From Sphingosinicella sp. (lineage in GTDB: Bacteria > Pseudomonadota > Alphaproteobacteria > Sphingomonadales > Sphingomonadaceae), in assembly GCF_013911755.1 (NCBI RefSeq), contig NZ_JACESP010000003.1:1-64000 (forward strand): a stretch of DNA of 64,000 nucleotides, written 5' to 3'. The notes under the pieces are model-generated. The model made no database searches, was not told the origin of the DNA, and was given only the letters and a program-made list of their open reading frames with translations. The position numbers were made by a program, and so were the translations under genes. Positions within the stretch are counted from its first letter, which is position 1; each line of letters starts with the position of its first letter. Positions 1,855 to 29,078 of the stretch are shown piece by piece.

Positions 1855-1914
1855 ACTTGCTGTCCGGGAGTCTTTCCGCCAGGGTGACGTAAATCGACAC
1901 AGATGGGGGCGACG

Positions 1915-3177
1915 ATGCGCAAACCGGCGGTACGGCGGAACGAGTTCACGAGGCTCTGCGCCCGCGCCGGACTCACCCTCGGGGAAGCCGCGACGCTGAT
2001 CGAGGTATCAGAACGCACTGCGTACCGCTACGCCGATGGTACGGGCCGTCCGTCGCGCCTTGCCCTTCGCGTTCTGCGCGATGCTGCGCACACGGGCGGG
2101 GAAGATAGGGACACCGACGGAGAGGTTCCGTTCCGCTTTATCGACCTGTTCGCGGGCATTGGCGGCCTGCGAATCGGCTTCCAGGGCATCGGCGGCCACT
2201 GCGTGTTCACGTCGGAATGGGACCCGCACGCGCAGAAGACCTACGCGCTCAACTTCCGCGACAACCATCCGGTGGCGGGCGACATCCGGCCCTATGCTGA
2301 AGACCCCGACCTTGTCCCCGGGCATGACGTGCTGCTGGCGGGCTTCCCCTGCCAGCCCTTCTCGATCGCGGGCGTTTCCAAGAAGAATGCGCTCGGTCGT
2401 CCGCACGGCTTTCTGTGCGACACGCAGGGGACGCTGTTCTTCGACACGGCGCAGATCATCGCGCACCACCGCCCGGCCGCGTTCGTTCTGGAGAACGTCA
2501 GGAACCTCGAACGCCACGACAAGGGGCGTACATTCGCGACGATCATGAACGTGCTCGAGAAGGAACTCGGCTACCACGTACAGGCGCGCGTCATCAGTTC
2601 GGCGCCGTGGGTGCCGCAGAAGCGCGAGCGCATCTTCATCGTTGGCTTCCGCGAGCCGGCTGCGTTCGACCTGAACGCGCTGAAATTGCCTGAAGGCGGC
2701 CCGAAGCTCGGCAGCATCCTTGAGCCGCACGAAGCTGTCGATCCGAAATACACGCTGACCCCGAAGCTCTGGGCCTATCTTCAGGCCTACCGCGAGAAGC
2801 ACAGCGCGAAGGGCAACGGGTTCGGCTACAGCCTGTTCGGCCCCGGCGACGTCACGCGCACGCTCTCCGCGCGCTACTACAAGGACGGCTCGGAGATTCT
2901 CATCGACCGGCCCGGCGGCCGGCCACGGCGCCTGACCCCGCTCGAGTGCGCGCGGCTCATGGGATTCGACCGCGGCGAGCGACGCTGGAAGATCGCGGTC
3001 TCGGACACGCAAGCCTACCGCCAGTTCGGGAACGCCGTCGTCGTGCCCGTTGTCGAGTTCCTCGCAAACGCCATGAAGCCCCATATCGAGGCGGCGCTGC
3101 GGAAGCCGCAAGCCGCACGTCAAGCTGCCGTCACCGTGAGCCGTCCGGACCGGGCGCCGCGCTACGCGCATGGCTGA
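1915..3177 (+). CDS. dcm: DNA (cytosine-5-)-methyltransferase, Dcm/M.EcoRII type
   Basis: The product transfers a methyl group from S-adenosylmethionine to C5 of cytosine in the host DNA, shielding it from the partner nuclease. The class motifs are present: AdoMet-binding FIDLFAGIGG (residues 75-84), catalytic GFPCQPFS with Cys146, ENV (193-195) and QKRERIF (235-241). An N-terminal helix-turn-helix (about residues 18-42) precedes the catalytic part; in M.EcoRII-like enzymes such a region allows autoregulation. The EcoRII-type nuclease downstream and the Vsr gene between them suggest CCWGG specificity. The end overlaps vsr by 8 bases. The start at 1915 has a GGGGGC stretch just upstream; ATG 1903 in the same frame is possible. 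A LexA-like box lies upstream. Confidence 0.93.
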   Translation: MRKPAVRRNEFTRLCARAGLTLGEAATLIEVSERTAYRYADGTGRPSRLALRVLRDAAHTGGEDRDTDGEVPFRFIDLFAGIGGLRIGFQGIGGHCVFTSEWDPHAQKTYALNFRDNHPVAGDIRPYAEDPDLVPGHDVLLAGFPCQPFSIAGVSKKNALGRPHGFLCDTQGTLFFDTAQIIAHHRPAAFVLENVRNLERHDKGRTFATIMNVLEKELGYHVQARVISSAPWVPQKRERIFIVGFREPAAFDLNALKLPEGGPKLGSILEPHEAVDPKYTLTPKLWAYLQAYREKHSAKGNGFGYSLFGPGDVTRTLSARYYKDGSEILIDRPGGRPRRLTPLECARLMGFDRGERRWKIAVSDTQAYRQFGNAVVVPVVEFLANAMKPHIEAALRKPQAARQAAVTVSRPDRAPRYAHG

Positions 3178-3628
3178 CGTCGTTCCGGCTGACGTGCGCA
3201 GCCGGATGATGGCGGGCATCCGCGGCACGAACACGAAGCCCGAACTGCTGCTGCGCTGGGGCCTTCACGCGCGCGGCTTCCGGTTCCGCCTGCATGACCG
3301 CACGCTCCCCGGCAAACCCGACATCGTGCTGCCGCGCTACCGGGCCGTCATCCTCGCGCACGGCTGCTTCTGGCACGGCCATGACTGCCACCTGTTCAAA
3401 TGGCCCTCGACACGGCCGGAGTTCTGGCAGGCGAAGATCGCGCGCAACCGGGAGGTCGACGCACGGGCTGAGGCGGCCCTCGCCGAGCTGGGGTGGCGGC
3501 AGGGCGTCGTCTGGGAGTGTGCGCTGAAGGGCAGGGCGCGGCTGCCTCTGGACGCGGTGATCCTTGCCTGTGCAGACTGGCTCGGATCGGACCGGCCCCG
3601 GCTGGAGATCAGGGGGAGAGAGGCATGA
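3170..3628 (+). CDS. vsr: Very short patch repair endonuclease Vsr
   Basis: Vsr nicks 5' of the T in T:G mismatches that arise when 5-methylcytosine deaminates at Dcm-type sites, starting repair. The protein has 152 residues, close to the E. coli length of 156. The catalytic residues line up with the E. coli numbering: Asp51 in GKPDIVLP, His64 and His69 in AHGCFWHG, and Asp97. Cys66, Cys73 and nearby residues fit the structural zinc site. The gene overlaps the methyltransferase by 8 bases and the EcoRII-type nuclease by 4 (ATGA), so the three are translated together. This is a standard partner for a C5-methylase. Confidence 0.95.
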   Translation: MADVVPADVRSRMMAGIRGTNTKPELLLRWGLHARGFRFRLHDRTLPGKPDIVLPRYRAVILAHGCFWHGHDCHLFKWPSTRPEFWQAKIARNREVDARAEAALAELGWRQGVVWECALKGRARLPLDAVILACADWLGSDRPRLEIRGREA

Positions 3629-4848
3629 GGCGGGGACAGCTCTCGGATTTTTTCGAAGGTGTCGTGGTCAAGCGGCTGAGCGCCGTGGAGACGACGCCTG
3701 CGACGTCCAACCAGCATGAGTTCAACGGTGCAGCACCGCTGCGCCGCCTGCTCGGGGATGATGATCGCAGGAACATTCGTGCCCGCTTCATCTGGCTTGG
3801 GCAGGAACAGGAAGCAGTGAGCGTCGACGGGATGGTGAGCTGGTACGACGCCCGCCGCAAACATCCGACACGCAGCGAGCACAGGCTCTACTATCCGGCC
3901 AATGAGGTTACGGGGATGATGGAGGCCGGTGACGTCTTCTTTCTTGCCCTCTGCCGCGACGGCTCCGCCATGGTAATCATTGTACCTTCAGGCAGCACGA
4001 TCCAGAACCAGCTGCTGTGGCTTTTCGGTCTCGAGGCGCAGCCGGAGTTCAGCTTCACGTTCCAGGAGATCGATCCGGCGCACAATGCCGAGCTCGATTT
4101 TGCCGCACGCTACATTCTCGACGAACTCGGGATCGAGCCGGACGAGCCCGAGGCCGATATTCTGGACGGGCTCATTGACGGCTTCGGGTTCACCTTTCCG
4201 ACAACCCGCATTTTCTCGCAGCTCGCCCGCACTTCGCTTCCGGATGTCTCGGCCGCCGATGATCCGGACCGGGCGCTGATCGAATGGATGGACCGGGAAG
4301 AGCAGCTCTTCCGCCGCCTTGAAAGACGGATCGTCGCGGCGCGGATCAGCGACGGCTTCCGTGCCGCAGACGGCGCCGACGTCGACGGGTTCCTGTCTTT
4401 CTCGCTTAGCGTGCAGAACCGCCGCAAGGCGCGCGCAGGGCAGGCGCTCGAGAACCACCTCGAGGCTGTTTTTACCGCGCAGGGCATCCGCCATGCGCGT
4501 GGCGCCGAAACCGAAAACCGCAACAGGCCCGACTTCCTGTTCCCAGGACAGGCAGAATACCGCGATTCAGCATTCCCGGCCGCACACCTGACCATGCTCG
4601 GCGCAAAGTCGACGCTGAAAGACCGCTGGCGACAGGTCCTGTCGGAAGCCGTCCGCATCGAGGAAAAGCATTTGCTGACCCTCGAACCGGGCATCTCCGA
4701 AAACCAGACTGAGGAAATGCAGGCCAAGCAGCTCCGGCTCGTCGTTCCGCGCCGTCTGCACGGAACCTTCCGGCCTGCCCAAAAGGGCTGGCTGATGGAT
4801 GTGTCCGACTTCCTCTCGGTGGTCCGGGCCCGTCAGGACAGGGCCTGA
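3625..4848 (+). CDS. Type II restriction endonuclease, EcoRII family
   Basis: The 407-residue protein has nearly the length of EcoRII (404). The N-terminal effector-like domain covers about residues 1-190. The C-terminal catalytic domain contains the PD-(D/E)xK-type core: RPDFLFP (301-307) and LGAKSTLKDRWRQ (325-337), with conserved Arg and Lys residues as in EcoRII-C. EcoRII cleaves before CCWGG and needs two sites, one acting as effector. The ATG overlaps the vsr stop codon (ATGA), making the start secure. With the methyltransferase and Vsr it forms a complete restriction-modification-repair cassette. Specificity is inferred from the family only. Confidence 0.9.
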   Translation: MRRGQLSDFFEGVVVKRLSAVETTPATSNQHEFNGAAPLRRLLGDDDRRNIRARFIWLGQEQEAVSVDGMVSWYDARRKHPTRSEHRLYYPANEVTGMMEAGDVFFLALCRDGSAMVIIVPSGSTIQNQLLWLFGLEAQPEFSFTFQEIDPAHNAELDFAARYILDELGIEPDEPEADILDGLIDGFGFTFPTTRIFSQLARTSLPDVSAADDPDRALIEWMDREEQLFRRLERRIVAARISDGFRAADGADVDGFLSFSLSVQNRRKARAGQALENHLEAVFTAQGIRHARGAETENRNRPDFLFPGQAEYRDSAFPAAHLTMLGAKSTLKDRWRQVLSEAVRIEEKHLLTLEPGISENQTEEMQAKQLRLVVPRRLHGTFRPAQKGWLMDVSDFLSVVRARQDRA

Positions 4849-6601: not shown

Positions 6602-7456
6602 TCAGCCGTATTCGTGATCGGATTTTCCTTTCGTCGGTGGTCGTCCGCGGCGTTTTTGCGGCGGATTGAACGCGGCGCCGTTGCGCACGTTTTCGGGGAC
6701 GAGCGCGGCGTGCTCGCGCATGCGGTAGCTGGAGCCCTCGATCTGGATCACGACGGCATGGTGCAGCAGCCTGTCGAGCAGTGCGGTGGCGACGACGGGA
6801 TCGCCGAAGACGTCGCCCCATTCGGCGAAGCCCCGGTTGGAGGTGAGGATCATGGCGCCCTTTTCGTATCGGGCGTTGACGAGCTGGAAGAACAGGTTGG
6901 CGCCGCCCGGCGTGACCGGCAGGTACCCGATCTCGTCGACGACGAGCAGCGATGTCCTGGCGAGGAAGCGGATCTTCTCCCTGAGCATGCCTTCACGCTC
7001 GGCTTTGGTGAGTTGAGCAATCAGATCGGCGAGCGGGATGAAGTAGACCGCTTTGCCGGCGCGCACCGCCTCGACCGCAAGTGCCGTGGCAATGTGGCTC
7101 TTGCCGGTGCCGGGCGGGCCCAGCAGATGGACAACTTCGGCGCGTTCGATGAAGTCCAGGCCGGCGAGCGCCAGGATGCGGTTGCGATCGAGCGATGGCT
7201 GGAACGAGAAGTCGTAGCCGGCCAGCGTTTTGACGACCGGCAGCCGGGCCATGCGCAGGGCCGCCTTGATCCGCCGGTTCTCGCGCAGCGACAGCTCTTC
7301 GCCCAGCAGCTCGTCGAGCGCCTCGATTCCGTCGATCTGTCCCTGCTCGATACGCCGCAGGGTCGCGTCGAGGATTTCGAGCGCGCGAGGCATCTTGAGG
7401 CTGACCAGGCTCCGGCGGATGGAGTCGACGCGCGCCGATGGTGCCACGCCGTTCAT
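6602..7456 (-). CDS. istB: IS21-family helper ATPase IstB
   Basis: IstB is the AAA+ ATPase (DnaC-like) that assembles on target DNA and recruits the IstA transposase. The 284-residue protein starts at ATG 7456 (MNGVAPSARV), overlapping the istA stop by ATGA. Walker A is in LLGPPGTGKSHIATAL and Walker B in LLVVDEIGYLP, followed by the sensor segment LTSNRGFAEWG, all typical of IstB. Length and ending (KRRGRPPTKGKSDHEYG) look complete, so this gene appears intact although its partner istA is not. Confidence 0.93.
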   Translation of the reverse strand: MNGVAPSARVDSIRRSLVSLKMPRALEILDATLRRIEQGQIDGIEALDELLGEELSLRENRRIKAALRMARLPVVKTLAGYDFSFQPSLDRNRILALAGLDFIERAEVVHLLGPPGTGKSHIATALAVEAVRAGKAVYFIPLADLIAQLTKAEREGMLREKIRFLARTSLLVVDEIGYLPVTPGGANLFFQLVNARYEKGAMILTSNRGFAEWGDVFGDPVVATALLDRLLHHAVVIQIEGSSYRMREHAALVPENVRNGAAFNPPQKRRGRPPTKGKSDHEYG

Positions 7457-8706
7457 GGCCGGCTCTCCATGGCGAGGCTCGCGCCGATGGCCTCGTAGAC
7501 CGCCAGCGAGCGCAGCGGCACATGGTCGCCGATCCGTCCTACCGTCATCGGCCGATCCTGTGGTCGCGACGTGGGTCGTCCCATGCGATGGTGCCGGTCG
7601 ATACGATATTGTCGGCGCCCTTCGAGCACGGGGTGTTCGGCAACGACGATGCCGCGGTCGATGATGCGGACCAGATCCGGCAGCTGCTCGATCTCGACGA
7701 CCCGGCGCGTTCGGTCGGGAACGCTGTAATAATTGCCGCCGACGGCCACGAGCCCGTCGTGGCTGACCCGCCGCTCGAGCTTCAGGACCGCATTGAAGCG
7801 GTGCTCGGGCAGGCGCTGCAACTCTTCCTGTTCTTCGGCGAAGGCCTCGGCCACCACGCGCTGGGTCGTACCGTGCACCCGCGCATTGGCGACGGTGTCG
7901 AGCCAGTCGATGAGCTGGGCGTTGAGATCCTCCATGTTGCGGAAGGATCGCCCGAGGAAGAAGTCCTCCCGGATATAGCGGAAGGGCCGTTCGACCTTGC
8001 CCTTCGTCTTGGCGCGGTAGGGACGGCAAGCTCTGGGCTGGAAGCGGTAGTGCCTTGCCAGCCCCAGCAGCGAACGATTGTAGACGATGTGCCCCTGGTC
8101 ATCCTCCCCGGTCACCGCCGTCTTCATGCGGTCGTAGAGAATCTCGATCGGCACGCCGCCCAGCGCCTCGAAGGCCTGCATGTGACAGCGCAGCAGCGTC
8201 TGCAGGTCCTGGTGCAGGACATAGCGGGCGAACAGGAAGCGCGAGTAGCCGAGCACCAGGCTGAACAGCCAGACGATGCGTACCACCCCCGGTTCGTCGG
8301 TAAACTCGACGACGAAGCGGGCGAAGTCGACCTGGCCCTGAACGCCGGCCCTGGTCTCGAAGCGAACCTCGTAGGGCTTGGGATCGTGCTCGGGGCGGAT
8401 CGCCGCCAGATAGCGCTTCACCGCCGTATAGGCGCCGGAATAGCCCATCTCCCTGATCTCGCGGGTCAGTCGCGAGGCCGTCAGATCGGGGAACGCCGTC
8501 ACCCGTTCGCGCAGGAAATCCATGTAGGGCGCGATCTTGCAAGGCCGACCCAATTTGCGCGGGCCGTACGCCGGCACCTCCACGCCGCGCTCGATTTATT
8601 TGCGCACGGTCTTGGGATCGCGCCCCGTTCGGCGCGCAATCGCCGTCACCGACAGCCCCTGCCGGTGCAACTCCAGTATCATCATGGCTTCTCCAAGTCG
8701 GATCAT
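7453..8706 (-). pseudogene. istA: IS21-family transposase IstA with an in-frame stop codon
   Basis: The DDE transposase reads from ATG 8706 (MIRLGEAMMILELHRQG). Its N-terminal helix-turn-helix (LSVTAIARRTGRDPKTVRK) is followed at codon 37 by TAA (8596-8598), where relatives normally have Tyr (KTVRKYIERG); a single C-to-A change of TAC would explain it. The rest (VEVPAYGPRK to the stop at 7453) is open and contains the catalytic core, including VQGQVDFARF. Initiation downstream would give a protein lacking the DNA-binding domain. The element is therefore probably defective unless helped in trans. Confidence 0.85.
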
Positions 8707-9487: not shown

Positions 9488-10693
9488 CTACCCATTCGAG
9501 GTCCGTCTCTCCGCGTTTCCAATAACCCGCAGCCCATCCTTGCGCACACGCAGATAGGCTTCGCGGCCGTCAGCGTTCGGATCGAAGCGAAGCTCGTGCG
9601 GTCGAAATCGCGCCCAGTCACCCAAGCCGAGATCGTCGGCCTCTTCCTCAGCCTTTTCCGGCTTCGGCGGCACCTCTTCAAAGACGGCGTAGTCGCGCTC
9701 AGGTCCGTCCTCACTCGTCGAGAACTGGTGCACCGACAACTCGGTCCCATCGGGAACGTCCAAAGGATCGACGCGGGACGCATGATGAAAAAGCACGACA
9801 TTGCGCTGATCGCCCGGCTGCTGGACCGAACGGAAGAGGATGCCGTCCAGGCCCGGCGCGGGTCGCCGCGCAAGATAGCCGGCAATCATCTGCGTGATCA
9901 GATACTCGGTCGGCTCGTCGTCCGGCATCACTGGCGTCGTGATCCGGTCGCTCAGCCGCGCCATGAATTTCGCGAGCGCAAGGCGCCTCTCATAGTCAGG
10001 CTCGAACAGGCTGCCCTCGACATACAGCGACTGCAGCGCCGTTACGTCCAGGAGACGCACGTCCCTCAACAACTCGAACTCGCCTATGACGGCCCTGCTG
10101 CCGACCGGCGGCCGCACCTCGGCGAGCGCCACCTCGGGATCGGATGCGCCATAGAAAGCCGCAATGCCATGGGCGTTCATCCGCCCGGCTCTCGCTTTCG
10201 TGGCCGGCGGGGGTCCTAGGTGAAGGTCCGGCCGCAATAGCGCGTCGTCCAGCTCGGTGTCTTGATGGAACGCCCGTGCCCGGAAGAAGGTCTTGATCTC
10301 GTGATCGGGGCCGGCGGTCACGATCACCGGCTTGCCATCCCGCGTGACCTGCCCGTCGACTTCGTCGAACAGGCAACCCATCAGGGCCTCGGCGGCAGGA
10401 TTGAAGTAGCGCGCCTCGACCTTCAGCGAGCGTTCCAGCTCGTGCCACTCTGCCGCGATCTCGCGATCGTCGACCCCCTTCGACTCATAGTGGCTGTCGC
10501 CTCCGAACTCGCATTCGTCGCCCATCTGCGCCGCTTCGAGATCCGCGTGTCGTTCCTCAAGGATGTCGAGTACGGCTTGAGCAAGCTCCTCGCTGATCGA
10601 GGCAGCATCGGCTATCGCGTAGAGCACCGGTTCGCCATGACGGTACCACTCAAAACTGATCTCGCGGTCGCGGATCAGCATTTCCTCGAACAT
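9488..10693 (-). CDS. RES-domain protein with N-terminal HEPN/RES-associated region (N-terminus cut by a stop codon)
   Basis: The open frame from ATG 10693 encodes 401 residues. The central part (about residues 140-320) looks like a RES domain, a fold found in NAD+-degrading toxins: FFRARAF with the conserved Arg, GRMNAHGIAAFYGASDPEVALAEVR with Tyr and Glu, and LRDVRLLDVTALQS. In the same frame upstream, a zinc-finger-like segment (CRGC and CAFC) with VGEDFLRGLIDQDG, and farther up ATG 10903 (MANDKDDE), match the N-terminal domain that usually precedes RES in this family. A TAA at 10877-10879 (codon 9) separates the two. The gene is either mutated or starts late. The Glu-rich C-terminal tail is unusual. 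It is transcribed away from the operon at 11011, sharing the spacer. Confidence 0.7.
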   Translation of the reverse strand: MFEEMLIRDREISFEWYRHGEPVLYAIADAASISEELAQAVLDILEERHADLEAAQMGDECEFGGDSHYESKGVDDREIAAEWHELERSLKVEARYFNPAAEALMGCLFDEVDGQVTRDGKPVIVTAGPDHEIKTFFRARAFHQDTELDDALLRPDLHLGPPPATKARAGRMNAHGIAAFYGASDPEVALAEVRPPVGSRAVIGEFELLRDVRLLDVTALQSLYVEGSLFEPDYERRLALAKFMARLSDRITTPVMPDDEPTEYLITQMIAGYLARRPAPGLDGILFRSVQQPGDQRNVVLFHHASRVDPLDVPDGTELSVHQFSTSEDGPERDYAVFEEVPPKPEKAEEEADDLGLGDWARFRPHELRFDPNADGREAYLRVRKDGLRVIGNAERRTSNG

Positions 10694-11010: not shown

Positions 11011-11946
11011 ATGGAGTTCCGCTCGCCTACCGTCGCCGCCCAGCAGAACGCCGAGGCAATCGCCTATCTCACCAAGAACCTCGCAGATCAGGACGCCGGT
11101 CGCGCCCAGGTCAATGAGCTGATCCATGAGCTTGGCAACGCGGTTGACCGCTATCCCGACTGGCATCCCATCCTTACCGCGGCCGCACGGAAGGCTGGTG
11201 AGCACATCTCCAGCATAGAACAGCTCGAAGCCTATAAAGGCATCGACCACACGCGGCAGTTCGTCCGCGGCTTCGTGACCTGCCCCTATTCGCGCGAAAG
11301 AGCCGATAAGATCGTGGCCTCGGTAGGGAAGATACCAGACTTATATGCGCGCAGGCTCGACACACCGCTTTACGCGAACGATGCCCACCCGGTCGTCGTC
11401 GTCGCCATGAACGTCGAACTGGAGGCCGATGGCACCATCCGCAGCCGAGACGCGATCGCCTGGTTCGTGCAGCGTGCCGCGGCCTCTGCCAACGGTGCTC
11501 AAGTGGCGGAGACTTGGTGGAACATCCGCTCCCATATTCTCGGCAAGCCGCACGGCTCGCGATCGTCGCTCTTTGTGAACCAGCATGCCGGCCTTCACAT
11601 GCGCAAAATCCTCGAGGCAATGAACGCCAGCGGCATGTTCGGCCCCGTCCTCGAATACTCGCTCGACATGCTATCACCCAAGAAGCGCGATGCCGTTGCC
11701 CGGACACTCCTCCGAAGCGCGATAGATGCTTGGGATGGGGAGAGCCCCTCATTCGAATTCGAGCTGCGCGGCGAGACCTGCATGGCGGCCATTCGGGACA
11801 CCTGGAGCGACGGTATGGAATTGTCCATCCGCATCGAAATCGGCAAGCACGACCTTTACGTCACTGGGTTCCACTACCCAAAGGAAGACAAGATCACGCA
11901 TGCGGACCCCACCGGCCGCCGCGATGTTGCGGAAAAGTTCTTATAG
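11011..11946 (+). CDS. Hypothetical protein (311 aa), first gene of a putative defence operon
   Basis: I do not recognise this protein. It starts at ATG 11011 after GAAGGGCC and contains no signal peptide or membrane helices. The N-terminal third is helical and charged; the middle (TCPYSRERADKIVASVG) and the end (ELSIRIEIGKHDLYVTGFHYPKED) look globular, with alternating beta-strand-like patterns near the C-terminus. No nuclease, ATPase or nucleotidyltransferase motif is visible. It is followed after 5-65 bases by a Shedu-like nuclease gene and then, with an ATGA overlap, by an Mrr-like nuclease, all on one strand. That suggests a sensor, adaptor or regulatory role in a three-gene system. This role is inference from position only. 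Confidence 0.7.
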   Translation: MEFRSPTVAAQQNAEAIAYLTKNLADQDAGRAQVNELIHELGNAVDRYPDWHPILTAAARKAGEHISSIEQLEAYKGIDHTRQFVRGFVTCPYSRERADKIVASVGKIPDLYARRLDTPLYANDAHPVVVVAMNVELEADGTIRSRDAIAWFVQRAAASANGAQVAETWWNIRSHILGKPHGSRSSLFVNQHAGLHMRKILEAMNASGMFGPVLEYSLDMLSPKKRDAVARTLLRSAIDAWDGESPSFEFELRGETCMAAIRDTWSDGMELSIRIEIGKHDLYVTGFHYPKEDKITHADPTGRRDVAEKFL

Positions 11947-12011
11947 GATCCATGCCCCGAACAGCGGCCCGTCGCCCCCGCCAACAACTTGGACAAGAGA
12001 TAACGGTCATC

Positions 12012-12896
12012 ATGCGAGAAGTGCCCAACGAAGCGCTAGCCTCCGCGTTCGAGCAGCTTCTCGACGACGCGGACAAAGACGAGAACGACGTTCAGGCTTT
12101 TTTGGAACAGCACACCGAGCTGCTCGACACCAGCCCTTGGCTGCTCAATCACCGCCTTCACATGAACTGCGTGATTGCGAAGTTCCCGATCGGCGGCCGG
12201 ACGGCTGACTTTGCCTATCTCACCAAATCATCCGACCGATGGACCTTCGTGCTCGTCGAAATCGAGCGTGCCAGCAAGCCGCTTTTCACCTCCAGCAGCA
12301 AGCACGTTGGCAACTCGTCGGAATTCAATGAGGCGCTCGCCCAAACCGCCGTATGGCGCGACCATTGGGAGCAACATCAAGCGGAAGTGCGCGAGCGTCT
12401 TCTGCCGCTGCTCGTCCCGCCCCCGATGGCGCGGAATCGCATCGAACTGCGCCGAGTCCTAGTCATCGGTCGGTCGACCGGAAAGGATTTCAGCCAGGCA
12501 CAGCGCGATCGTATCGCTAGCATCGAGGAGGATCAGAAGATCAAGATCCTCACCTATGACTCGCTCCTGCGGAGCTACCGATCCGGATGGGGCGAGAAGA
12601 AGTGCGTCCTGTCGCCGCGCTCCACCGGCTATGCGATCAAGCACCTGGACGGCTGGCCCAAGCTGATCTTCGCCTATGTCCTGCCCGAGCACCTCTCTGT
12701 GCCGGCATCGATCGAGGCACGGCTGAAGACGGAGGGCTACCAGATGCACGCGTGGCGCAACAATCAGCTGCTGCGTTTCAACGAGAAATGGGCAACCGAG
12801 CCGACCGACGAGGAGGCCGGCGACGTGCACCCTGCGGTGCTCAGGGTCATTCGCGCCGCTGACAGAGCGCGCCCATCAAAGGCGAAGCGGCGATGA
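12012..12896 (+). CDS. Shedu-like (DUF4263) immune nuclease
   Basis: The 294-residue protein resembles the C-terminal nuclease domain of SduA. It has NDVQAFLEQHTELLD (26-40), the GGRTADFAYL strand with Asp66, the catalytic-type strand FVLVEIERASKPLF with Glu83 and Glu85, the helix EALAQTAVWRDHWEQH (107-122), and the late element RRVLVIGRSTGKDF followed by ITYDSLL-like ILTYDSLL. Shedu proteins are PD-(D/E)xK nucleases that restrict phages. Here the usual E-x-K triad reads E-I-E, which may affect catalysis. The N-terminal sensor domain seen in many Shedu proteins is absent. ATG 11952, in frame and only 5 bases after the previous gene, is an alternative start. The end overlaps the next gene by ATGA. 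Confidence 0.75.
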   Translation: MREVPNEALASAFEQLLDDADKDENDVQAFLEQHTELLDTSPWLLNHRLHMNCVIAKFPIGGRTADFAYLTKSSDRWTFVLVEIERASKPLFTSSSKHVGNSSEFNEALAQTAVWRDHWEQHQAEVRERLLPLLVPPPMARNRIELRRVLVIGRSTGKDFSQAQRDRIASIEEDQKIKILTYDSLLRSYRSGWGEKKCVLSPRSTGYAIKHLDGWPKLIFAYVLPEHLSVPASIEARLKTEGYQMHAWRNNQLLRFNEKWATEPTDEEAGDVHPAVLRVIRAADRARPSKAKRR

Positions 12897-13759
12897 GCAG
12901 CCTGCGCTCGATCGAGCTTGGGCTGATCGACGAGGTCTTCCGCGGCGGCGAGAAGGGCTATGTGCTCGATTTCTCGAACCGGACCTTCGCCGAGTTCTTT
13001 GTGCGGGAGCTCGATATCGACATTGACGCCCCTCAATACGCCGTCGATGGGTCCTCCAAGGCTAAGCGGTTGCGCTGCTTTCTGGGCCAAGTGGACGACG
13101 GGACGGCAGCGCGGACACTGCGCGTCCTCTGGGAGCAACGTGAGGCGCTCCGTGGGCCCGGCACGCCGGATCCGATGCCTCGGGCAGCCGCTCAGGTCGC
13201 CGGATTAATCGCCAGGCTCGAAGGCACCGCTCCGCTCACGCCAGACAACGTCGTGCCGGCGCCGATGCTCGATGCGATCGATTTCGCACGGCTGCGAGAC
13301 CGGCTGATCGCCATTCGTGATCTTGAGCCGCATCGCCGAGGCTATGACTTCGAGCGTTTCCTCACCGAACTCTTCGACGGCTTCCGTCTGAAAGCGCGCG
13401 AGCCCTTCCGCCTCGACGGCGAGCAAATCGACGGCAGCTTCGAACTCGGGAACGAGACCTACCTGGTCGAAGCGAAGTGGCTCAACCGCAAGGTCGGCGT
13501 TGCTGAACTCCACACCTTCCACGGCAAGGTGGAGCAGAAAGCGTCTTGGGCGCGTGGGGTGTTCATCAGCTTTGGCGGCTTCACTGAAGAGGGACTCCGA
13601 GCGTTCGGTCGCGGCAAACGCGTGATCGGTGTTGAGGGCAAGGATCTGTACGATGCGCTGGACCGCTGTATCGGCATCGATCGGCTGCTGGCGCTTAAGG
13701 TGCGCCGCGCCGCCGAGACCGGGGAGGTATTCGCGCCTCTCGCAGGTCTAATGCCCTGA
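12893..13759 (+). CDS. AbiJ-NTD-like / Mrr-like restriction endonuclease fusion
   Basis: The 288-residue protein has two parts. Residues 1-70 (SIELGLIDEVF, KGYVLDFSNRTFAEFF, SSKAKRLRCFL) match an N-terminal domain often fused to effector domains of abortive-infection proteins (AbiJ-NTD type). Residues 145-250 form an Mrr-cat-like PD-(D/E)xK nuclease: RGYDFERFLTELF with Glu154, EQIDGSFE with Asp180, and YLVEAKW with Glu193 and Lys195. The ATG overlaps the stop of the Shedu-like gene, so the two nucleases are translationally coupled. Inferred role: an effector that cleaves DNA upon infection. A stand-alone AbiJ-like system is the alternative reading. Confidence 0.78.
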   Translation: MSSLRSIELGLIDEVFRGGEKGYVLDFSNRTFAEFFVRELDIDIDAPQYAVDGSSKAKRLRCFLGQVDDGTAARTLRVLWEQREALRGPGTPDPMPRAAAQVAGLIARLEGTAPLTPDNVVPAPMLDAIDFARLRDRLIAIRDLEPHRRGYDFERFLTELFDGFRLKAREPFRLDGEQIDGSFELGNETYLVEAKWLNRKVGVAELHTFHGKVEQKASWARGVFISFGGFTEEGLRAFGRGKRVIGVEGKDLYDALDRCIGIDRLLALKVRRAAETGEVFAPLAGLMP

Positions 13760-14221
13760 GTCGTTGAACGTACGGGCGCAAAGCCGACCGGCTGATCTGC
13801 GCGACACGAATGACGGGTTTCAGCAAGAGCCGCCGCTCACATCGAAGACGCTGAACCTCTTGAGCTGGTCGAGTGCTGCCCGTGCGATCGGCACCAGTAG
13901 CGTGGCAAGTGCCGCCGCCAAAGGCGCCATCCGGTAGGTTGATTCGGATCCCTCAAACCTGCCTTTCATCTGTCAAACGGCCACACCGGTTCGTCAAATG
14001 GGTTTGGGACATTCCCGCCGTCCGCGGGCCTGAAGACGAAAGTCTGCTTTTGGCAAAACCGGCCTTGCCTAGGCGGTTAGCTGCTACTTTTGATCTGACT
14101 TTGCGACAAGAATCCTGAGCCACTAAGGAGCAATAAGCGGTAATGGGGGTGGTGCGGTGCTCGTCATGTCCGTTCCTATTGGCGAGAATCCGGGGAAGTT
14201 CGCCAATCGGGGGTGAAGAGC
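13760..14221. other. Intergenic region between the nuclease operon and Gabija
   Basis: About 460 bases with no gene I can support. An 81-codon open frame (13873-14118) has Pro/Arg-rich composition and no ribosome-binding site. The segment presumably holds the end of one operon and the promoter of gajA; no clear hairpin terminator or -35/-10 pair stands out. Confidence 0.5.
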
Positions 14222-15985
14222 ATGCATCTGGCGCAGCTGACGATCAAGAATTTCAGGCGTATTGCCGAGGCGACCTTGCTCTTCCGGCCCGGCCTCAACG
14301 TTATCGTCGGGCCCAACAATATCGGCAAGACTGCGGTGGTCGACGGCCTGCGCGCGCTGCTCGCTGGCGTCGACGATCCCTATCCTCGCTTCACGCTGGA
14401 CGACATCCATCTACCCAAGGGGGGCACGGCATCCGGCGAGATACTCTTCGAATATGTCTTCCGCGGGCTCAGTCTGGATGACGAGGCCGACTTCATCCAT
14501 GCACTGCGGGAGCGTGAAGACGGGACAATCGAAGCCGTGATGGGTGTGACCTACGGCGATGCCGATAAGTCCGGTCGCCTTAAGCCGCGGCGCTGGTGCG
14601 GCGACTTCAACGAAATCGCGATGACCTCCGCGATGCTAGAGAACCTGCGGAGCGTCTATCTCCAGCCACTGCGCGATGCCGAGCTCGGCCTGCGGCCCAG
14701 CCGCAACAGCCAGTTGTCGCGGCTGCTGCATCTCCTATCCGACGATGCCGGCAAGGTCGCGATCGCGACGGCACTCCGCCAGCTCGACGTTACACTGCGT
14801 GGCCATAAGCCGATCATGGATACGCACGCAGCGATCACCAGCCGGCACGGCGCAATGTTAGGTCCAAAGCTTGCCCAGGCGGTCGAAGTCGGGCTCGCCG
14901 GGACCGATTTCAGCAAGCTCGCAGCGCGCCTGTCGCTCGTCGTCGACACGTTCGAGATCGAGCGCAACGGCCTCGGCTACAACAATCTAATCTACATGGC
15001 GGTGGTGCTAAGCGAACTCGCTAAGAATGCCGACGCCGCCTTTCGCAGCCTAATTGTCGAGGAGCCCGAGGCGCACCTCCATCCCCAGCTTCAGGCCGTT
15101 CTGCTGCGCTATCTTGCCGAGATTGATTCGAGCACGACGGGCGAACATGCGGTCCAGGTGTTTGTCACCAGTCACTCGCCGAACTTCGCCAGCATCGCCG
15201 ATCTCGACTCGGTCGTCTGCCTGGTCGAAGCGGGCGGCACCGCGACCGCCTTCCACCCCCGCACCGTGCCGTTCGGCAAGGGCAAGCGCGAGAAGCTCGC
15301 CCGCTATCTCGATGTCACCCGAGCAGAGCTTTTCTTCGCGCGACGCGCGCTGTTCGTCGAAGGCGCCGCCGAATTGCTGCTCGTCAGCGTGCTGGCGAAC
15401 GTCCTCGGGCACGACTTACGCGACCACGGGGTCAGCCTGATCAGCGTGGAGGGGCTGAACTTCGACTGCTTCATGCCGCTGTTCGGCGACAAGGCCATCG
15501 CCATCCCTGTCGCGGTCCTCACCGATGCCGATCCGAGCATCAAGGTTCCTAAGCCTGGAACCAAGCCAGGTGAGAAAGTGAAGTACGACACGGTGGCGCT
15601 CTATCCCACGCTCGCCGACGTCATCGAACCCTCGGCCACCGCGCAATCAATGCTGGCGTTGCAGGACAGCTTGGTGAAGGTGTTCCACGGCCAAAAAACC
15701 TTCGAATATGATCTCGCGCTCATCGCTGGAAACCGCCCAACGATGTTGGCGGCGCTCAAAGACCTTCATCCTCAAATTGCCGAAGATCTCGCGGCCGAGG
15801 TCGGCGCTGCGGTTGGCGAGGCCGAAAAGGCGAAGGTCCTGTTCAGGGGCATGTTCGAGCGCGACAACGGTAACGTGTCGAAGGGTCGCTTCGCGCAGGC
15901 GTTGGCATCGCAGATCCAGGACAACAAGCTCGCGATCACCGCGCCGGCCTATATCCGCGACGCGATCGAGCATGTCTGCCAATGA
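14222..15985 (+). CDS. gajA: Gabija protein GajA, OLD-family ATPase-TOPRIM nuclease
   Basis: GajA is the sequence-specific DNA nicking component of Gabija, inhibited by normal nucleotide levels and released when phage activity depletes them. The 587-residue protein has Walker A GPNNIGKT (30-37), the signature-like GYNNLIYMAVVLSEL, Walker B LIVEEPEAHLHPQ and H-loop VTSHSPNF of the ABC ATPase domain. The TOPRIM nuclease follows, with ALFVEGAAELLLVSVLA and AVLTDADPS. The length agrees with known GajA (about 580). ATG 14222 follows GGTGAAG; GTG 14213 is a possible earlier start. The stop overlaps the gajB start by ATGA. Confidence 0.92.
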   Translation: MHLAQLTIKNFRRIAEATLLFRPGLNVIVGPNNIGKTAVVDGLRALLAGVDDPYPRFTLDDIHLPKGGTASGEILFEYVFRGLSLDDEADFIHALREREDGTIEAVMGVTYGDADKSGRLKPRRWCGDFNEIAMTSAMLENLRSVYLQPLRDAELGLRPSRNSQLSRLLHLLSDDAGKVAIATALRQLDVTLRGHKPIMDTHAAITSRHGAMLGPKLAQAVEVGLAGTDFSKLAARLSLVVDTFEIERNGLGYNNLIYMAVVLSELAKNADAAFRSLIVEEPEAHLHPQLQAVLLRYLAEIDSSTTGEHAVQVFVTSHSPNFASIADLDSVVCLVEAGGTATAFHPRTVPFGKGKREKLARYLDVTRAELFFARRALFVEGAAELLLVSVLANVLGHDLRDHGVSLISVEGLNFDCFMPLFGDKAIAIPVAVLTDADPSIKVPKPGTKPGEKVKYDTVALYPTLADVIEPSATAQSMLALQDSLVKVFHGQKTFEYDLALIAGNRPTMLAALKDLHPQIAEDLAAEVGAAVGEAEKAKVLFRGMFERDNGNVSKGRFAQALASQIQDNKLAITAPAYIRDAIEHVCQ

Positions 15986-17685
15986 CCGCGTTGCTGTCGG
16001 ACGAACAGGCCGGAATCGTCGCGCTGCCGCTTGGCCCGCTCGCGGTCTCGGCCTGCGCGGGCAGCGGCAAGACGCGCACCGCTGTCCACCGGCTCGCCGC
16101 GATGCGCCGGCTTTACGAGGGCAGGGGTATCGTTGCCTTGCTGTCCTTTTCGAACGTCGCGGTCGACACGTTCAGCAAGGAATATGCGTCCCTTCTGCGC
16201 GACCTGCCGGTGATCGGCCGCTCTGCCACCGTCGAGATCGACACGATGGACGGGTTCATCACCACCAACATCCTCCGTCCACACGGCCACCGCGTCATGA
16301 AATGCGCGCGCGCGCCGTTTCTGGTCGATGGCGCCGAACCGTTTCTGAACAGCTTCACCGTATGGGACGGCAGCCGGCCGAGGCCGACCACCGAGATCGA
16401 TTTCGCCTGCGACGGCGCAAACTTCAAATTTTTGATCGGCAAGAACAAGGCAGAGCTCCCGGCTAACTGGGCCGCACCCGCGGTCGCCAGCCTTGGCAAG
16501 ACCGGTGCCTATACCCATAATGCCGGGCGCTATTGGGTCCTGCGCGTGCTGCGCGAAAAGCCCTTCGTCCTGCGCGCGCTCGCGCGCCGCTATCCCCATA
16601 TCCTTGTCGACGAGGCCCAGGATATTGGGCCTGAGCATCAAGCGGTCCTCGAACTGCTAATCGGGGCGGGTTCGCAGGTGTCGCTGATCGGGGATCCACA
16701 TCAGGGCATCTTCGACTTCGCGCGCGCCAAGGGCGCGTTCCTCAAAGCTTATGGCGACCGCGCAGGCGTCGCGGCGCGGAGCCTCACCGTAAACTACCGC
16801 TCGCTGCCGGGGATCGTCTCCGTCGCGAACAGGCTGATCGGCGCGCGCGACACCGCGGCCAGGGTCGCCACCACCGAGCGCCCTTCGGCCTTCTACATGC
16901 CGTACAAGGCCGCGTCGCGCGACGCGGCGCTGGACTCGTTCCGCAGTCTGCTCGTTGCTGCGGGCCTCGATCCCGCAAAAGGCGCGGTCTTGTGCCGTTC
17001 GAACGATCTGACTGCCGAGTGGCGCGGTGAGATGGACGCGCAGGGAGTCGGTGTCGTCCGCTGCCTAGCCGAGGCGGCGATCAGCCGCGAACGTCGCGAC
17101 TTCCTGCGCGCGTACCAGCAGACCTGTCTTGGACTCACGGGCCTACTCGCGCCGAAGCACGGTTCGCTTGCGGTCGACCTCGCGCGGCCCGCTGACGAGA
17201 CGATGCGGGGGCTGCGCCAACGCATCTGGGCGTTCGTGCGCGATCCTGCGTCCGGGCTGCCCGCAGCGAGCTTGATTGCCGATACCGGCTGGCACCCCGC
17301 GCTGAAGGCGCGCGTTACCGGTCTGGTCGCGGTGCTCGGTGCCGAGTTTGGGCTACAGGCCGCCGAAAATCTCGGCCAACGCCTGGCGAAGAAACAACTT
17401 CCCAATGCACCGTTGCTCGCAGCCCCGATCCTAACGGCGGCGGCAGCGCCCTCGTTCCGCACCTCGACCGTGCACCGGGTAAAAGGCGAAAGCATTGATG
17501 CCGTCCTCTACGTTGCCAAGAAGTCGCACGTCCGCGCTTTGCTCGACGGCACCGACACCGAAGACGGGCGGATCGGCTACGTTGCGCTGACGCGTGCCAA
17601 GGACCTGTTCGTTCTGGCGGTGCCGGACACGGCCTTGCGCGCATTCGAGCCGGAGCTGCACGCTTCTGGCCTGGTGCGTGCGTGA
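15982..17685 (+). CDS. gajB: Gabija protein GajB, UvrD/PcrA-like helicase
   Basis: GajB is the superfamily 1 helicase-like partner of GajA and is thought to sense DNA ends and hydrolyse nucleotides to activate the complex. In 567 residues are Q-motif LSDEQAGIVALP, Walker A CAGSGKT (25-31), motif II LVDEAQDIGPEHQ, motif III SLIGDPHQGIFDFARA, motif IV-like VNYRSLPGI, motif V TVHRVKGESIDAVL and motif VI GYVALTRAKD. It is somewhat longer than the best-known GajB (about 500 residues). The 4-base overlap with gajA indicates translation as a unit. Confidence 0.92.
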   Translation: MTALLSDEQAGIVALPLGPLAVSACAGSGKTRTAVHRLAAMRRLYEGRGIVALLSFSNVAVDTFSKEYASLLRDLPVIGRSATVEIDTMDGFITTNILRPHGHRVMKCARAPFLVDGAEPFLNSFTVWDGSRPRPTTEIDFACDGANFKFLIGKNKAELPANWAAPAVASLGKTGAYTHNAGRYWVLRVLREKPFVLRALARRYPHILVDEAQDIGPEHQAVLELLIGAGSQVSLIGDPHQGIFDFARAKGAFLKAYGDRAGVAARSLTVNYRSLPGIVSVANRLIGARDTAARVATTERPSAFYMPYKAASRDAALDSFRSLLVAAGLDPAKGAVLCRSNDLTAEWRGEMDAQGVGVVRCLAEAAISRERRDFLRAYQQTCLGLTGLLAPKHGSLAVDLARPADETMRGLRQRIWAFVRDPASGLPAASLIADTGWHPALKARVTGLVAVLGAEFGLQAAENLGQRLAKKQLPNAPLLAAPILTAAAAPSFRTSTVHRVKGESIDAVLYVAKKSHVRALLDGTDTEDGRIGYVALTRAKDLFVLAVPDTALRAFEPELHASGLVRA

Positions 17686-20059: not shown

Positions 20060-20445
20060 CTGGCGCACTTTCGTATCTATGACAAATGACGTATAAACTT
20101 TCGTGCGACGGTTGCAACCCCTATCCTGTTGGCGTCGCGTCCGTAGGTAATGGCAGGTTCGGGCTTGAGCGGACGTTCCTGCAACTGCTTCGGAACGGCT
20201 CGTGTTGGTCGGTTCGAGACGTCGACACCGACGCATTTGAATGTCTGCCGTCCCGTTTTCTGATCTCCGAAGCCGCCGTTCCGGTCAGTCCGACGTTGCA
20301 GTCGAACCCCTAATGCCGGGCAAGAAACGAGCTGTTTGCGTCAATAAGCACTAATATGCATCAAAACTGTACTGTCCCGGACTGCCCACAGATCTGATCA
20401 TCCCGACTCGTGAAGACGCGGCTTTTGCCCGTCGGGAGGTGCGGG
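20060..20445. other. Divergent spacer between the XRE-ImmA module and traG
   Basis: About 390 bases carrying promoters for both directions. Direct repeats ACTTTCGT are described separately. An open frame at 20086-20313 is Cys/Ser-rich and lacks a ribosome-binding site, so it is not called. No terminator or tRNA seen. Confidence 0.5.
20067..20104. promoter_or_regulatory. Pair of direct repeats ACTTTCGT upstream of the XRE-ImmA operon
   Basis: ACTTTCGT occurs at 20067-20074 and 20097-20104, 30 bases apart (about three helical turns), directly upstream of the start codon at 20059 on the minus strand. The spacing and position fit a binding site for the XRE protein encoded by the operon. The repeat is seen; its function is inferred. 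Confidence 0.4.
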
Positions 20446-22476
20446 ATGACGCCCACAAAACTTCTCATTGGCCAGATGCTGGCGGTTCTTGCCGTCATGA
20501 CGCTGGGCGTGTGGGCGGCGACACAGTGGACTGCGGCGATGCTGGGCTATCAGGGCGCGCTCGGGGTGGCATGGTTCAACCTCTTCGGCACACCCATCTA
20601 CGATCCCTGGTCGATCTTTTTGTGGTGGTACCACTATGAGGCGTATGCGCCAGAAATCTTCGACGAAGCCGGTCTGATTGCCGGGGGAAGTGGATTTCTG
20701 GGCTGCGCTGCGGCTATCGGCGGCTCGCTGTGGCGGGCCCGCCAACAGCGCCGGGTCACGACCTATGGTTCAGCCCGCTGGGCGGGACGACGGGAAATCG
20801 CCCGCGCCGGGCTGTTTGGATGCTCCGGCGTATTTCTGGGTGGTTTCAGACGGCATTACCTCCGCCACGACGGCCCCGAACACGTCATGGCGTTCGCGCC
20901 GACGCGGTCGGGCAAGGGCGTGGGCCTCGTCGTTCCGACGCTGCTCAGCTGGACCGGTTCGGCCGTAGTCCACGATATCAAGGGCGAGAACTGGGCGCTG
21001 ACCGCGGGCTGGCGGCGTTTGTTTTCCCACTGTCTCCTCTTCAACCCGACCGATGTGCGCTCGGCATTCTACAATCCGCTGCTTGAGGTGCGGCGCGGTG
21101 AGCACGAAGTGCGCGACGCCCAGAACATCGCCGATGTGCTTGTCGATCCCGAAGGCGCGCTTGAACGCCGCAATCACTGGGAGAAAACCAGTCACAGCCT
21201 GCTCGTCGGCGCGATTCTTCATGTTCTTTACGCCGAGGAGGAGAAAACGCTGGCCCGCGTCGCGGCGCTCCTCTCCGACCCTGAGAGGAGCTTCGTCTCG
21301 ACCCTCGGGCGCATGATGGCGACCAACCATCTTGGCACTGCAGAGGCGCCCCGGGTCCATCCGGTGGTTGCATCGGCGGCGCGCGAGCTCCTCAACAAGA
21401 GCGAGAACGAGCGCTCGGGCGTCCTGTCGACCGCGATGTCATTCCTCGGGCTCTACCGCGATCCCACGGTTGCGATGGTCACGTCGCGCTGCGACTGGCG
21501 CATTGCCGATCTTGTCGAGGCTGAGCGTCCGGTCTCGCTCTATTTTGTCATCCCGCCCGCCGACATTTCCCGGACAAAACCGCTCGTCCGGCTTGTTCTG
21601 AACCAGATCGGACGGCGGCTGACCGAAGATCTCGAGGGCGCGAAGGACGGGCGCCGTCACCGCCTGCTTCTGATGCTCGACGAGTTTCCGGCGCTGGGGC
21701 GGCTCGACTTCTTCGAATCCGCGCTCGCGTTCATGGCGGGCTACGGAATCCGTGCCTTCCTGATCGCGCAGTCGCTCAACCAGATCGCCAAAGCTTACGG
21801 CGAGAGCAACGCTATCCTCGACAACTGCCATGTCCGCATCGCGTTCGCGACCAACGACGAGCGCACCGCGAAGCGGATCTCGGACGCCCTCGGCACAGCA
21901 ACCGAGCAGCGGGCAATGCGCAACTATGCTGGCCACCGTCTCGCGCCGTGGCTCGCGCATGTCATGGTCAGCCGCCAGGAAACCGCGCGGCCGCTGCTGA
22001 CCACGGGCGAGGTCATGCAGCTGCCGCCCTCCGATGCGATCGTCATGGTGTCGGGGCTAGCGCCGATCCGCGCGAAAAAGCTGCGCCACTACGCCGATGC
22101 CAATTTCACGCAGCGCCTGCTGCCGGCGCCGAGGCTCGAAGGCGACGTTTATTCAGATCGGCCGGTTCTACGCGTCCACGACTGGGAAGGATATGGCCCG
22201 AGGCCGCTCATTAAGCGTCCGAAGACCACCCCAGACGTGTCCGAAGCCGGAGACGGGGGACTTCAGCGCCAGCGGGTGCCGGGACAGAAGCCGCGAAAGG
22301 TGAAGGCTGTGCAGCCAGCGCCCGAGCGCGCCCATGTAGGCGGCGGCGCCGATGCGGCCACAGACAAGCTGGCAATGGATCAGGCGCGCGCCGCCGGAAG
22401 GGGCCAGCAGCAGGGCGTGCAGCGCGCGCATGCGATGAATCAGGGTCGCGGTCGCGACCTCGTCCCGGGGATCTGA
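20446..22476 (+). CDS. traG: Conjugal transfer coupling protein TraG (VirD4 family)
   Basis: TraG is the inner-membrane ATPase that links the relaxase-DNA complex to the mating channel. The 676-residue protein begins with two hydrophobic segments (about 7-30 and 75-95). Walker A APTRSGKGVG (151-160), Walker B LLLMLDEFPALGRLDF and the IAQSLNQI motif of VirD4 proteins follow. The start at 20446 is preceded by GGGAGGTGCGGG; GTG 20410 would extend it by 12 residues. The C-terminal 80 residues are Arg/Gln-rich and disordered-looking. It opens the transfer operon. Confidence 0.93.
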   Translation: MTPTKLLIGQMLAVLAVMTLGVWAATQWTAAMLGYQGALGVAWFNLFGTPIYDPWSIFLWWYHYEAYAPEIFDEAGLIAGGSGFLGCAAAIGGSLWRARQQRRVTTYGSARWAGRREIARAGLFGCSGVFLGGFRRHYLRHDGPEHVMAFAPTRSGKGVGLVVPTLLSWTGSAVVHDIKGENWALTAGWRRLFSHCLLFNPTDVRSAFYNPLLEVRRGEHEVRDAQNIADVLVDPEGALERRNHWEKTSHSLLVGAILHVLYAEEEKTLARVAALLSDPERSFVSTLGRMMATNHLGTAEAPRVHPVVASAARELLNKSENERSGVLSTAMSFLGLYRDPTVAMVTSRCDWRIADLVEAERPVSLYFVIPPADISRTKPLVRLVLNQIGRRLTEDLEGAKDGRRHRLLLMLDEFPALGRLDFFESALAFMAGYGIRAFLIAQSLNQIAKAYGESNAILDNCHVRIAFATNDERTAKRISDALGTATEQRAMRNYAGHRLAPWLAHVMVSRQETARPLLTTGEVMQLPPSDAIVMVSGLAPIRAKKLRHYADANFTQRLLPAPRLEGDVYSDRPVLRVHDWEGYGPRPLIKRPKTTPDVSEAGDGGLQRQRVPGQKPRKVKAVQPAPERAHVGGGADAATDKLAMDQARAAGRGQQQGVQRAHAMNQGRGRDLVPGI

Positions 22477-22480
22477 CGCG

Positions 22481-22903
22481 ATGAAGACGCGGCACAACCT
22501 CTATCTGGAGCGCGAGATCGGCGACGCGCTGACGGCGATGGCGGCGGCGCCGGGGACAAACAAATCGAAGATCGCGACCGAGGCAATTGCCGCCTACATG
22601 GCGCGGCGCGCACAGCGTGAGATCGATGCGCTGATCAAACCGCGCTTCGACCGGCTGTCGCGAAATGTCGGTCACCTGCAGCGCGATCTGGGCGTGCTCA
22701 TCGAGGCGTTTGGCCTGTTTGTCCGGCATCAGCTCATCCTTTCGGCAGGAGCGCCGGACCCGAGCGCGGCCGTACTCGCACTCGGACATCAGCAATTCGA
22801 GGCCTTCATCGGGCAGCTGGGGCGGCAGCTTGCCGCCGGAAAATCCGCGTTCGCTTTCGAAGAGGCGGCGGACGAGGACGGCGATACGGAGATTGCCGCA
22901 TGA
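22481..22903 (+). CDS. Ribbon-helix-helix (CopG-like) protein of the transfer operon
   Basis: The 140-residue protein starts with a ribbon-helix-helix pattern: the strand RHNLYLEREIGDAL, then NKSKIATEAIAAYMARRA. A helical C-terminal part (FDRLSRNVGHLQRDLGVLIEAF) follows. Small proteins of this type sit between traG and trbB in related elements, and are usually listed as CopG-family regulators. The end overlaps trbB by ATGA. Likely a DNA-binding regulator of transfer gene expression. Confidence 0.8.
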   Translation: MKTRHNLYLEREIGDALTAMAAAPGTNKSKIATEAIAAYMARRAQREIDALIKPRFDRLSRNVGHLQRDLGVLIEAFGLFVRHQLILSAGAPDPSAAVLALGHQQFEAFIGQLGRQLAAGKSAFAFEEAADEDGDTEIAA

Positions 22904-23877
22904 GCCCCGCGATCGCCCTCGAACGGCGCCGCACGATGCTGCAAACGGCGATGGGACCGGCGATCGGCGCCGCGCTCGGCGATGCGCGCGTCCTCGAGAT
23001 CATGGTCAATCCCGACGGTGCGCTCCGCCTCGACATCGCAGGCGAGGGTTGCGTCGATACCGGCGTGCGAATGGGCGCCACCGACGTCGAACGCATCATC
23101 CGCCTCGTCGCCAGCGGCGCGCGGACACCCGTGCATGCGGGGGCGCCCATCGTCTCGGCGGAGCTGCCGGCGGACAAGGGCGGGGCAGGGGAGCGATTCG
23201 AGGGCGTGCTGCCGCCGGTCTCGACCGCACCCTGTTTCTCGATCCGCAAGCCGGCGGCGCGCATCTTCACGCTTCTCGATTATGTCGAGGCGGGTGTTCT
23301 GACGGCTGAGGCTGCGCGCATTCTGGCGCTCGCTGTCGCCGGGCGCCGCAATATCCTGATCGCGGGCGGGACCTCATCGGGAAAGACGACGCTTGCCAAC
23401 GCGCTGCTCGCCGAAATGGCGGGTATCAACGAGCGTGTCATCCTCATTGAGGACACACGCGAACTGCAGTGCGCCGCACGCGACAGCATTTCCCTCAGGA
23501 CCCGTCCGGGCAGCGTCAGCATGGCCGACCTCGTCCGCTCGACGCTGCGCCTGCGGCCCGACCGGATCGTCATCGGCGAGGTGCGGGGCGGAGAGGCGCT
23601 CGACATGCTGAAGGCCTGGAATACCGGTCACCCCGGCGGCATTGCGACCGTCCATGCCAACAGCGCGCTGGCAGCGCTCGACCGGCTCGAACAGCTTGTC
23701 GAGGAGAGCGTTGTGAACGCGCCGCGCCGGCTCATCGCCGATGCGCTCGACATGGTCGTGTTCATTTCCGGGCGCGGTCCCGGCCGGCGCGTGAGCAGCA
23801 TTCTCGGCGTCCACGGCCTCGATGCCGCCGGCGTCTGGTCAGTCACACCCATTCATCCCGAGCAAGGAGACAAATGA
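22900..23877 (+). CDS. trbB: Conjugal transfer ATPase TrbB (VirB11 family)
   Basis: TrbB is the hexameric traffic ATPase of the type IV secretion machine, acting at the cytoplasmic face of the inner membrane. In 325 residues there is Walker A AGGTSSGKTTLAN (about 153-165), the Asp box VILIEDTRELQC, Walker B-like RIVIGEVRGGEALD and the His box GHPGGIATVHANS. Length is usual for the family (about 320). It overlaps the preceding CopG-like gene by 4 bases, and trbC starts at its stop codon. Confidence 0.95.
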   Translation: MSPAIALERRRTMLQTAMGPAIGAALGDARVLEIMVNPDGALRLDIAGEGCVDTGVRMGATDVERIIRLVASGARTPVHAGAPIVSAELPADKGGAGERFEGVLPPVSTAPCFSIRKPAARIFTLLDYVEAGVLTAEAARILALAVAGRRNILIAGGTSSGKTTLANALLAEMAGINERVILIEDTRELQCAARDSISLRTRPGSVSMADLVRSTLRLRPDRIVIGEVRGGEALDMLKAWNTGHPGGIATVHANSALAALDRLEQLVEESVVNAPRRLIADALDMVVFISGRGPGRRVSSILGVHGLDAAGVWSVTPIHPEQGDK

Positions 23878-29075: not shown

Positions 29076-29078
29076 ACG

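Follow-up and report, generated by a model that had tools for sequence, protein, structure and literature searches.

Do the three genes at positions 11,011 to 13,759 of contig NZ_JACESP010000003.1 of Sphingosinicella sp. (assembly GCF_013911755.1) make up one defence system, or do they belong to more than one? The window, by which we mean the whole stretch of 64,000 nucleotides that was analysed (positions 1 to 64,000, forward strand), carries there an open reading frame (ORF) for a 311-amino acid protein (ORF1), a gene for a Shedu nuclease (ORF2) and a gene for an Mrr-type nuclease with an AbiJ-type N-terminal domain, AbiJ-NTD (ORF3). An initial annotation had taken the three for an operon of a new kind. 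On balance we favour the reading that ORF2 and ORF3 represent a two-nuclease variant of Shedu, composed of a compact Shedu and an AbiJ-NTD/Mrr protein, and that ORF1 is probably an unrelated solo gene beside it. The features concerned are:

11011..11946, plus strand, ORF1, 311 amino acids (ORF call)
12012..12896, plus strand, ORF2, compact Shedu nuclease, 294 amino acids (ORF call, Pfam, PADLOC)
12893..13759, plus strand, ORF3, AbiJ-type N-terminal domain and Mrr_cat PD-(D/E)XK-type nuclease, 288 amino acids
12893..12896, plus strand, ATGA start/stop overlap of ORF2 and ORF3, 4 bases (GTGA in three relatives)
11995..13737, plus strand, conserved block of the cassette, which aligns at about 85% DNA identity with three other sphingomonad contigs

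The assignment of ORF2 to Shedu (SduA, DUF4263) by the initial annotation was borne out. The protein matches SduA_C of Pfam with residues 22–186 (E = 1.6e-25; 90.5 bits at a curated cut-off of 27) and, near full length, the PADLOC SduA model PDLC00378 with residues 5–286 (E = 6.4e-101); this model is 287 positions long and files ORF2 as a compact Shedu. Behind SduA_C there is a C-terminal part of about 105 residues; in front of it, where SduA_C already starts at residue 22, no N-terminal domain was recognised with Pfam or PADLOC. In this ORF2 differs from the type I Shedus, which according to the available parts of PMC12137116 and PMC12904381 have an N-terminal regulatory or sensor domain, and it also differs from known Shedus in being coupled to a second nuclease gene. 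A fold search with a weak structure model of ORF2 (mean predicted local distance difference test score, pLDDT, 50.2) placed the Shedu of B. cereus on top (E = 4.3e-4; top hits 8ti9 and 8ti8), and PDB sequence searches with all three proteins gave no match at E up to 1. In the alignment of 11 Shedu sequences D66 and E83 are kept in all, K72 in 10 (S in L138) and E85 in 10 (G in a fusion protein, L072, described below); D66, K72, E83 and E85 are thus the candidate active-site residues of ORF2.

The frame of ORF2 is open upstream to a TTG at 11514. A Shedu of 460 amino acids starting there was rejected: two of the relatives described below (L046 and L033) have their first start codon at the equivalent of 12012. 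In a third relative (L048) the equivalent frame stays open further upstream.

ORF3 matches Pfam Mrr_cat with residues 150–254 (E = 5.8e-9; 36.5 bits, cut-off 21), as do 6 of 6 aligned members of its family; its one match in PADLOC is weak (PDC-S02, 0.027). D180, E193 and K195 are invariant across the alignment of six sequences and would be catalytic. No Pfam model matched the N-terminal half. Proteins from 11 viral-contig loci match this N-terminal domain only, and the five of them that were tested (5 of 5) all carry Abi_C (PF14355), so that the label AbiJ-NTD type is supported by its being joined to Abi_C elsewhere. The initial annotation was therefore right in calling ORF3 an Mrr nuclease with an abortive-infection N-terminal domain. 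Fusions of AbiJ-NTD1 or AbiJ-NTD2 with Mrr were already described in 2013, in the part available to us of a paper on the HEPN superfamily in Biol Direct (PMC3710099). ORF3 resembles the AbiJ-NTD2-Mrr restriction endonuclease given there in having an N-terminal domain common with Abi_C proteins and a C-terminal Mrr nuclease; it differs in being coupled to Shedu and in that its AbiJ-NTD subtype is left unassigned by Pfam.

The pair of nuclease genes is found again in relatives. When a collection of species genomes was scanned with the Shedu alignment, 5 loci were obtained, and at three of these, from Sphingomonas sp. Ag1 (L046), S. leidyi (L048) and a third genome (L047, taken as the same contig as G200/L033), a Shedu of 89–90% identity is adjacent to an Mrr protein of 90–91% identity. 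The ATGA joint between the nuclease genes, already seen by the initial annotation, is in all three relatives a GTGA. ORF1 is not present in the stretches examined of these three (0 of 3). The DNA alignable at 85% is limited to about 11995–13737, from just 5' of the Shedu ATG to the end of the Mrr gene, and homology breaks off between ORF1 and Shedu. In ORF1's place all three relatives have genes for a MazE-type antitoxin and a PIN toxin, here termed VapBC, ahead of Shedu (Pfam check made on the L046 pair only).

Between the window and the three relatives the synonymous divergence (dS) is 0.62–0.73 for Shedu and 0.72–0.84 for Mrr, and the ratio of nonsynonymous to synonymous divergence (dN/dS) is 0.07–0.10 for ORF2 and 0.06–0.07 for ORF3. 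Both nuclease genes are under strong purifying selection and are more than chance ORFs. Because dS is similar, purifying selection strong and the overlap kept, the pair is a cassette passed on as one unit within a small clade of four genomes, the window included.

Do all three genes, then, form one defence operon? They lie on the same strand, the gap between ORF1 and Shedu is 65 bases, and since no terminator was found in it, co-transcription in the window is possible (a promoter scan of the plus strand found no site); yet such an operon is highly improbable and largely refuted, since none of the three other genomes found with the pair carries ORF1, since homology to them ends between ORF1 and Shedu, and since relatives of ORF1 stand at 18 of 18 loci with no Shedu in view. 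Of the new arrangement claimed in the initial annotation there stands the coupling of Shedu to a second nuclease, in four genomes; the inclusion of the first gene does not.

The 18 ORF1-family loci are made up of 10 of 200 matching plasmid records, 3 viral-collection contigs and 5 genome loci; they include one with a C-terminal fragment only (L058) and exclude the weak or partial matches in G904 and the second one in G837, as well as L065 and L066, which repeat L051 and L052 and were dropped. The first gene is indeed unrecognised, as had been stated: neither Pfam nor PADLOC matched it, and a single match in NCBIfam and another in PHROGs were both below threshold. Structure prediction, which had been suggested as a way to identify it, did not help: the model from a four-sequence alignment has a mean pLDDT of 55.8, only the last about 90 residues being confident, and its fold search yielded nothing with an E value of 0.001 or below. 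The family is an unannotated gene with relatives in 200 of 72,556 plasmid records (in 81 of them the match spans 80% of the length or more), plasmids of Vibrio and Aeromonas and IncA plasmids among them. Two viral-collection contigs have full-length relatives (69% and 50%) and one a short form; phage records searched with the ORF1 protein gave no match at E = 0.001. ORF1 itself matches 3 of 298 genomes of the family, and its family alignment 6 of 299 genomes of the phylum, its own included in both counts. We judge ORF1 from this distribution to be a solo mobile gene of plasmids, viral-collection contigs and genome contigs that is not part of the nuclease cassette, with defence, counter-defence and element upkeep as candidate roles.

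The short form of ORF1, of about 220 amino acids, stands in L035 directly ahead of a SIR2 gene. This row (L035:7862-12040, genome G245) consists of the short ORF1 relative, the SIR2-domain gene and a gene for a 483-amino acid protein that had no Pfam match and that we presume to be akin to a short Argonaute.

How often do the two nucleases occur together? In the 298 family genomes SduA_C was found at 16 places in 12 genomes, and an Mrr protein lies beside it at 2 of the 16 (the window and G200; Mrr profile, 1.5-kb flanks). The Mrr protein was found in the same genomes at 20 places in 19 genomes, at several of them over one domain only, and Shedu adjoins 2 of the 20, as seen with a neighbourhood profile built from nine compact Shedus that may miss other Shedu types; profile and counts exclude L103, a frame-broken Shedu, and do not include G387/L011, a Shedu match with E = 1e-6. 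Among the 1,451 plasmid records matched by Mrr, the eight that were opened (L008, L009, L059–L064) have no Shedu. In the family sample the two nucleases are thus found apart more often than together. The initial annotation had named this outcome, and that of a first gene mostly occurring alone, as refuting its reading, and as far as seen both are the case. From the 2 of 16 and 2 of 20 joint places and the plasmids without Shedu it follows that the combination is so far confined to one small clade. ORF2 itself is rare, matching 2 of 385 class genomes (its own included) and 68 plasmid records, every one with less than 60% identity. We found no Shedu-Mrr operon described in the titles, beginnings of abstracts and passages searched, which is weak evidence because most subscription papers were outside this coverage; the available part of PMC9519451 holds Shedu, operon and Mrr, but handles them separately.

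Compact Shedus without Mrr in view are also found elsewhere. The two remaining loci of the species-genome scan have Shedus of 43–45% identity and no Mrr in view, although L049, one of the two, ends 68 bases past Shedu, its downstream side lying outside the view. The window's own genome has a second compact Shedu (L034, G000:C34:112937-113773) that is 44% identical and has no Mrr, and such Shedus also stand in L050 from Novosphingobium and in four plasmid stretches (L102, L104, L105, L106), with Agrobacterium, Sebaldella, Pectobacterium and Klebsiella as plasmid hosts. The gene setting of L050 is similar to that of L034.

What could the cassette do? Most likely it would defend both the element and its host, cleaving phage or plasmid DNA as it comes in. 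EcSduA binds DNA ends and cleaves afterwards, according to the available part of PMC12904381, and by analogy ORF2 would most likely be an end-directed nuclease that cuts linear incoming DNA; lacking an N-terminal clamp, it would sense ends through the core itself, through the C-terminal part or through a partner. ORF3 would most likely be a second DNA-cutting nuclease that is restrained or triggered through the AbiJ-type domain. The start/stop overlap suggests translational coupling, which would yield similar amounts of both nucleases. Each nuclease probably acts largely on its own as an effector, the Mrr gene being an accessory that in other places stands behind VapBC or AbiE, and ORF1 may have landed ahead of the cassette where the relatives have VapBC and may lend it transcription via a shared transcript.

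A different mechanism, in which the two nucleases form one complex, is doubtful but has to be weighed: the AbiJ-type domain of Mrr would serve as an in-trans sensor for the sensorless Shedu, and the Mrr protein would be its partner or a second cutter. It would fit the lack of a recognised N-terminal domain in ORF2, the conserved overlap and the similar dS, and it gains from a natural fusion on a prophage-like viral-collection contig (L072, 4923-6134), in which an Mrr-type and a Shedu-like domain are in one frame. The Mrr part of the fusion is 44% identical to residues 138–288 of ORF3 (E = 4e-31), and the Shedu part is detected by PADLOC (E = 3e-8); however, the latter stays below the Pfam cut-off (E = 0.0011; 19.6 bits versus 27) and is without E85, the fusion has no AbiJ-type domain, and it is a single case. 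No second fusion was found: in 398 genomes no match spanned most of the query (16 matches, all on the Mrr part), 0 of 1,396 matched plasmid records had a coverage of more than 80%, and the viral contigs gave none; L085 repeats L072 and was dropped. In another genome (G072/L149, 3573-5179) a compact Shedu stands directly behind a TIR gene (TIR_2, 2e-25) on the same strand, as though partners swap, although this Shedu has S for K72. Weighing against a complex are the six compact Shedus without Mrr in view (L034, L050, L102, L104, L105 and L106) and the 18 of 20 family places at which the Mrr protein is without Shedu. The nucleases may cooperate, as fusion, coupling and co-inheritance suggest, or may not, given their frequent separation.

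If the pair acted together, Shedu would draw on another gene for its sensor or for a second nuclease, which would also hint at the way in which compact Shedus that lack a sensor domain are kept under control. A more general proposal, rather unlikely in our estimate, is that compact Shedus are bare nuclease cores activated by exchangeable neighbours, namely AbiJ-NTD/Mrr, TIR or a covalently fused Mrr; were it true, Shedu would be a plug-in nuclease that exchanges sensors through its neighbouring genes and not through domain fusion alone.

Returning to the two-nuclease variant with largely autonomous effectors and a solo ORF1, several points weigh against it. The four paired genomes are closely related (about 89–91% protein identity), so that the pair represents few independent events. 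The two nucleases may be less autonomous than assumed, because of the L072 fusion and because they are coupled in all four paired genomes. The structure models of ORF1 and ORF2 are both weak. With respect to ORF1, there is the missing terminator mentioned above; the flanks visible at the inspected loci are limited, L051 even ending at the stop codon of the ORF1 relative; and at two of the 18 loci (L054 and L055) an Mrr-family gene lies 3–4.5 kb off on the opposite strand.

The Mrr protein occurs in other settings, which bear on how the cassette arose. An AbiE-type pair precedes it in L037, L038, L059, L060 and L108. In a Novosphingobium (L062) it directly follows VapBC with 4-base overlaps and without Shedu, this VapB being 70–73% and this VapC 53–55% identical to those ahead of Shedu-Mrr. 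In L063 and L064 Mrr is convergent with VapBC, and in L008 and L061 it has neither VapBC nor AbiE nor Shedu alongside. The window shares with the VapBC-Mrr and AbiE-Mrr rows one Mrr family, which there stands directly behind a toxin-antitoxin pair; unlike them it has no such pair (a search of the window with the relatives' VapBC proteins gave no match) and has ORF1 ahead of Shedu-Mrr. A plausible history is that a VapBC-Mrr operon gained Shedu in between and that the window lost VapBC, where ORF1 now stands. AbiJ-NTD/Mrr turns up repeatedly as an accessory, be it behind VapBC, behind AbiE or behind Shedu. On two rhizobial plasmids (L059 and L060) it is also found ahead of HamA (Hachiman), which comes next after AbiE-Mrr; the row there is DUF6088, AbiEii, AbiJ-NTD/Mrr and HamA, in L060 followed by a DEAD/DEAH helicase.

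Is the cassette active in defence at all? Its location on a mobile element, and in the relatives its place behind toxin-antitoxin genes, would be compatible with an inactive cassette or with a function outside defence, for instance stabilisation of the conjugative element; this is very unlikely in view of the intact frames, the strong purifying selection, the invariant acidic and lysine residues and the adjoining Gabija genes. The surroundings are as follows:

98-1438, DUF3363 protein
1903-4845, type II restriction-modification module (C5 cytosine methylase, EcoRII-C nuclease), upstream on the same element
7456-8583, minus strand, transposase with integrase core, presumably IS21-like
9488-10693, minus strand, RES-domain protein of 401 amino acids with a long unrecognised N-terminal part, next to the island (Pfam)
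14213..15985, plus strand, GajA of Gabija (Pfam, PADLOC)
15982..17685, plus strand, GajB helicase of Gabija (Pfam, PADLOC)
20410-31992, type IV secretion system genes
32458-34173, serine recombinase, its end overlapping tRNA-Asn on the other strand
34157-34231, minus strand, tRNA-Asn

As the initial annotation had said, the genes lie in a defence island on a conjugative element: the island is confirmed by Gabija downstream, which we judge to be an independent system, and by the EcoRII-type module upstream, and the element by the DUF3363 protein, the secretion genes and the serine recombinase at tRNA-Asn. From its position this tRNA gene is likely to be the attachment site at which the element integrated.

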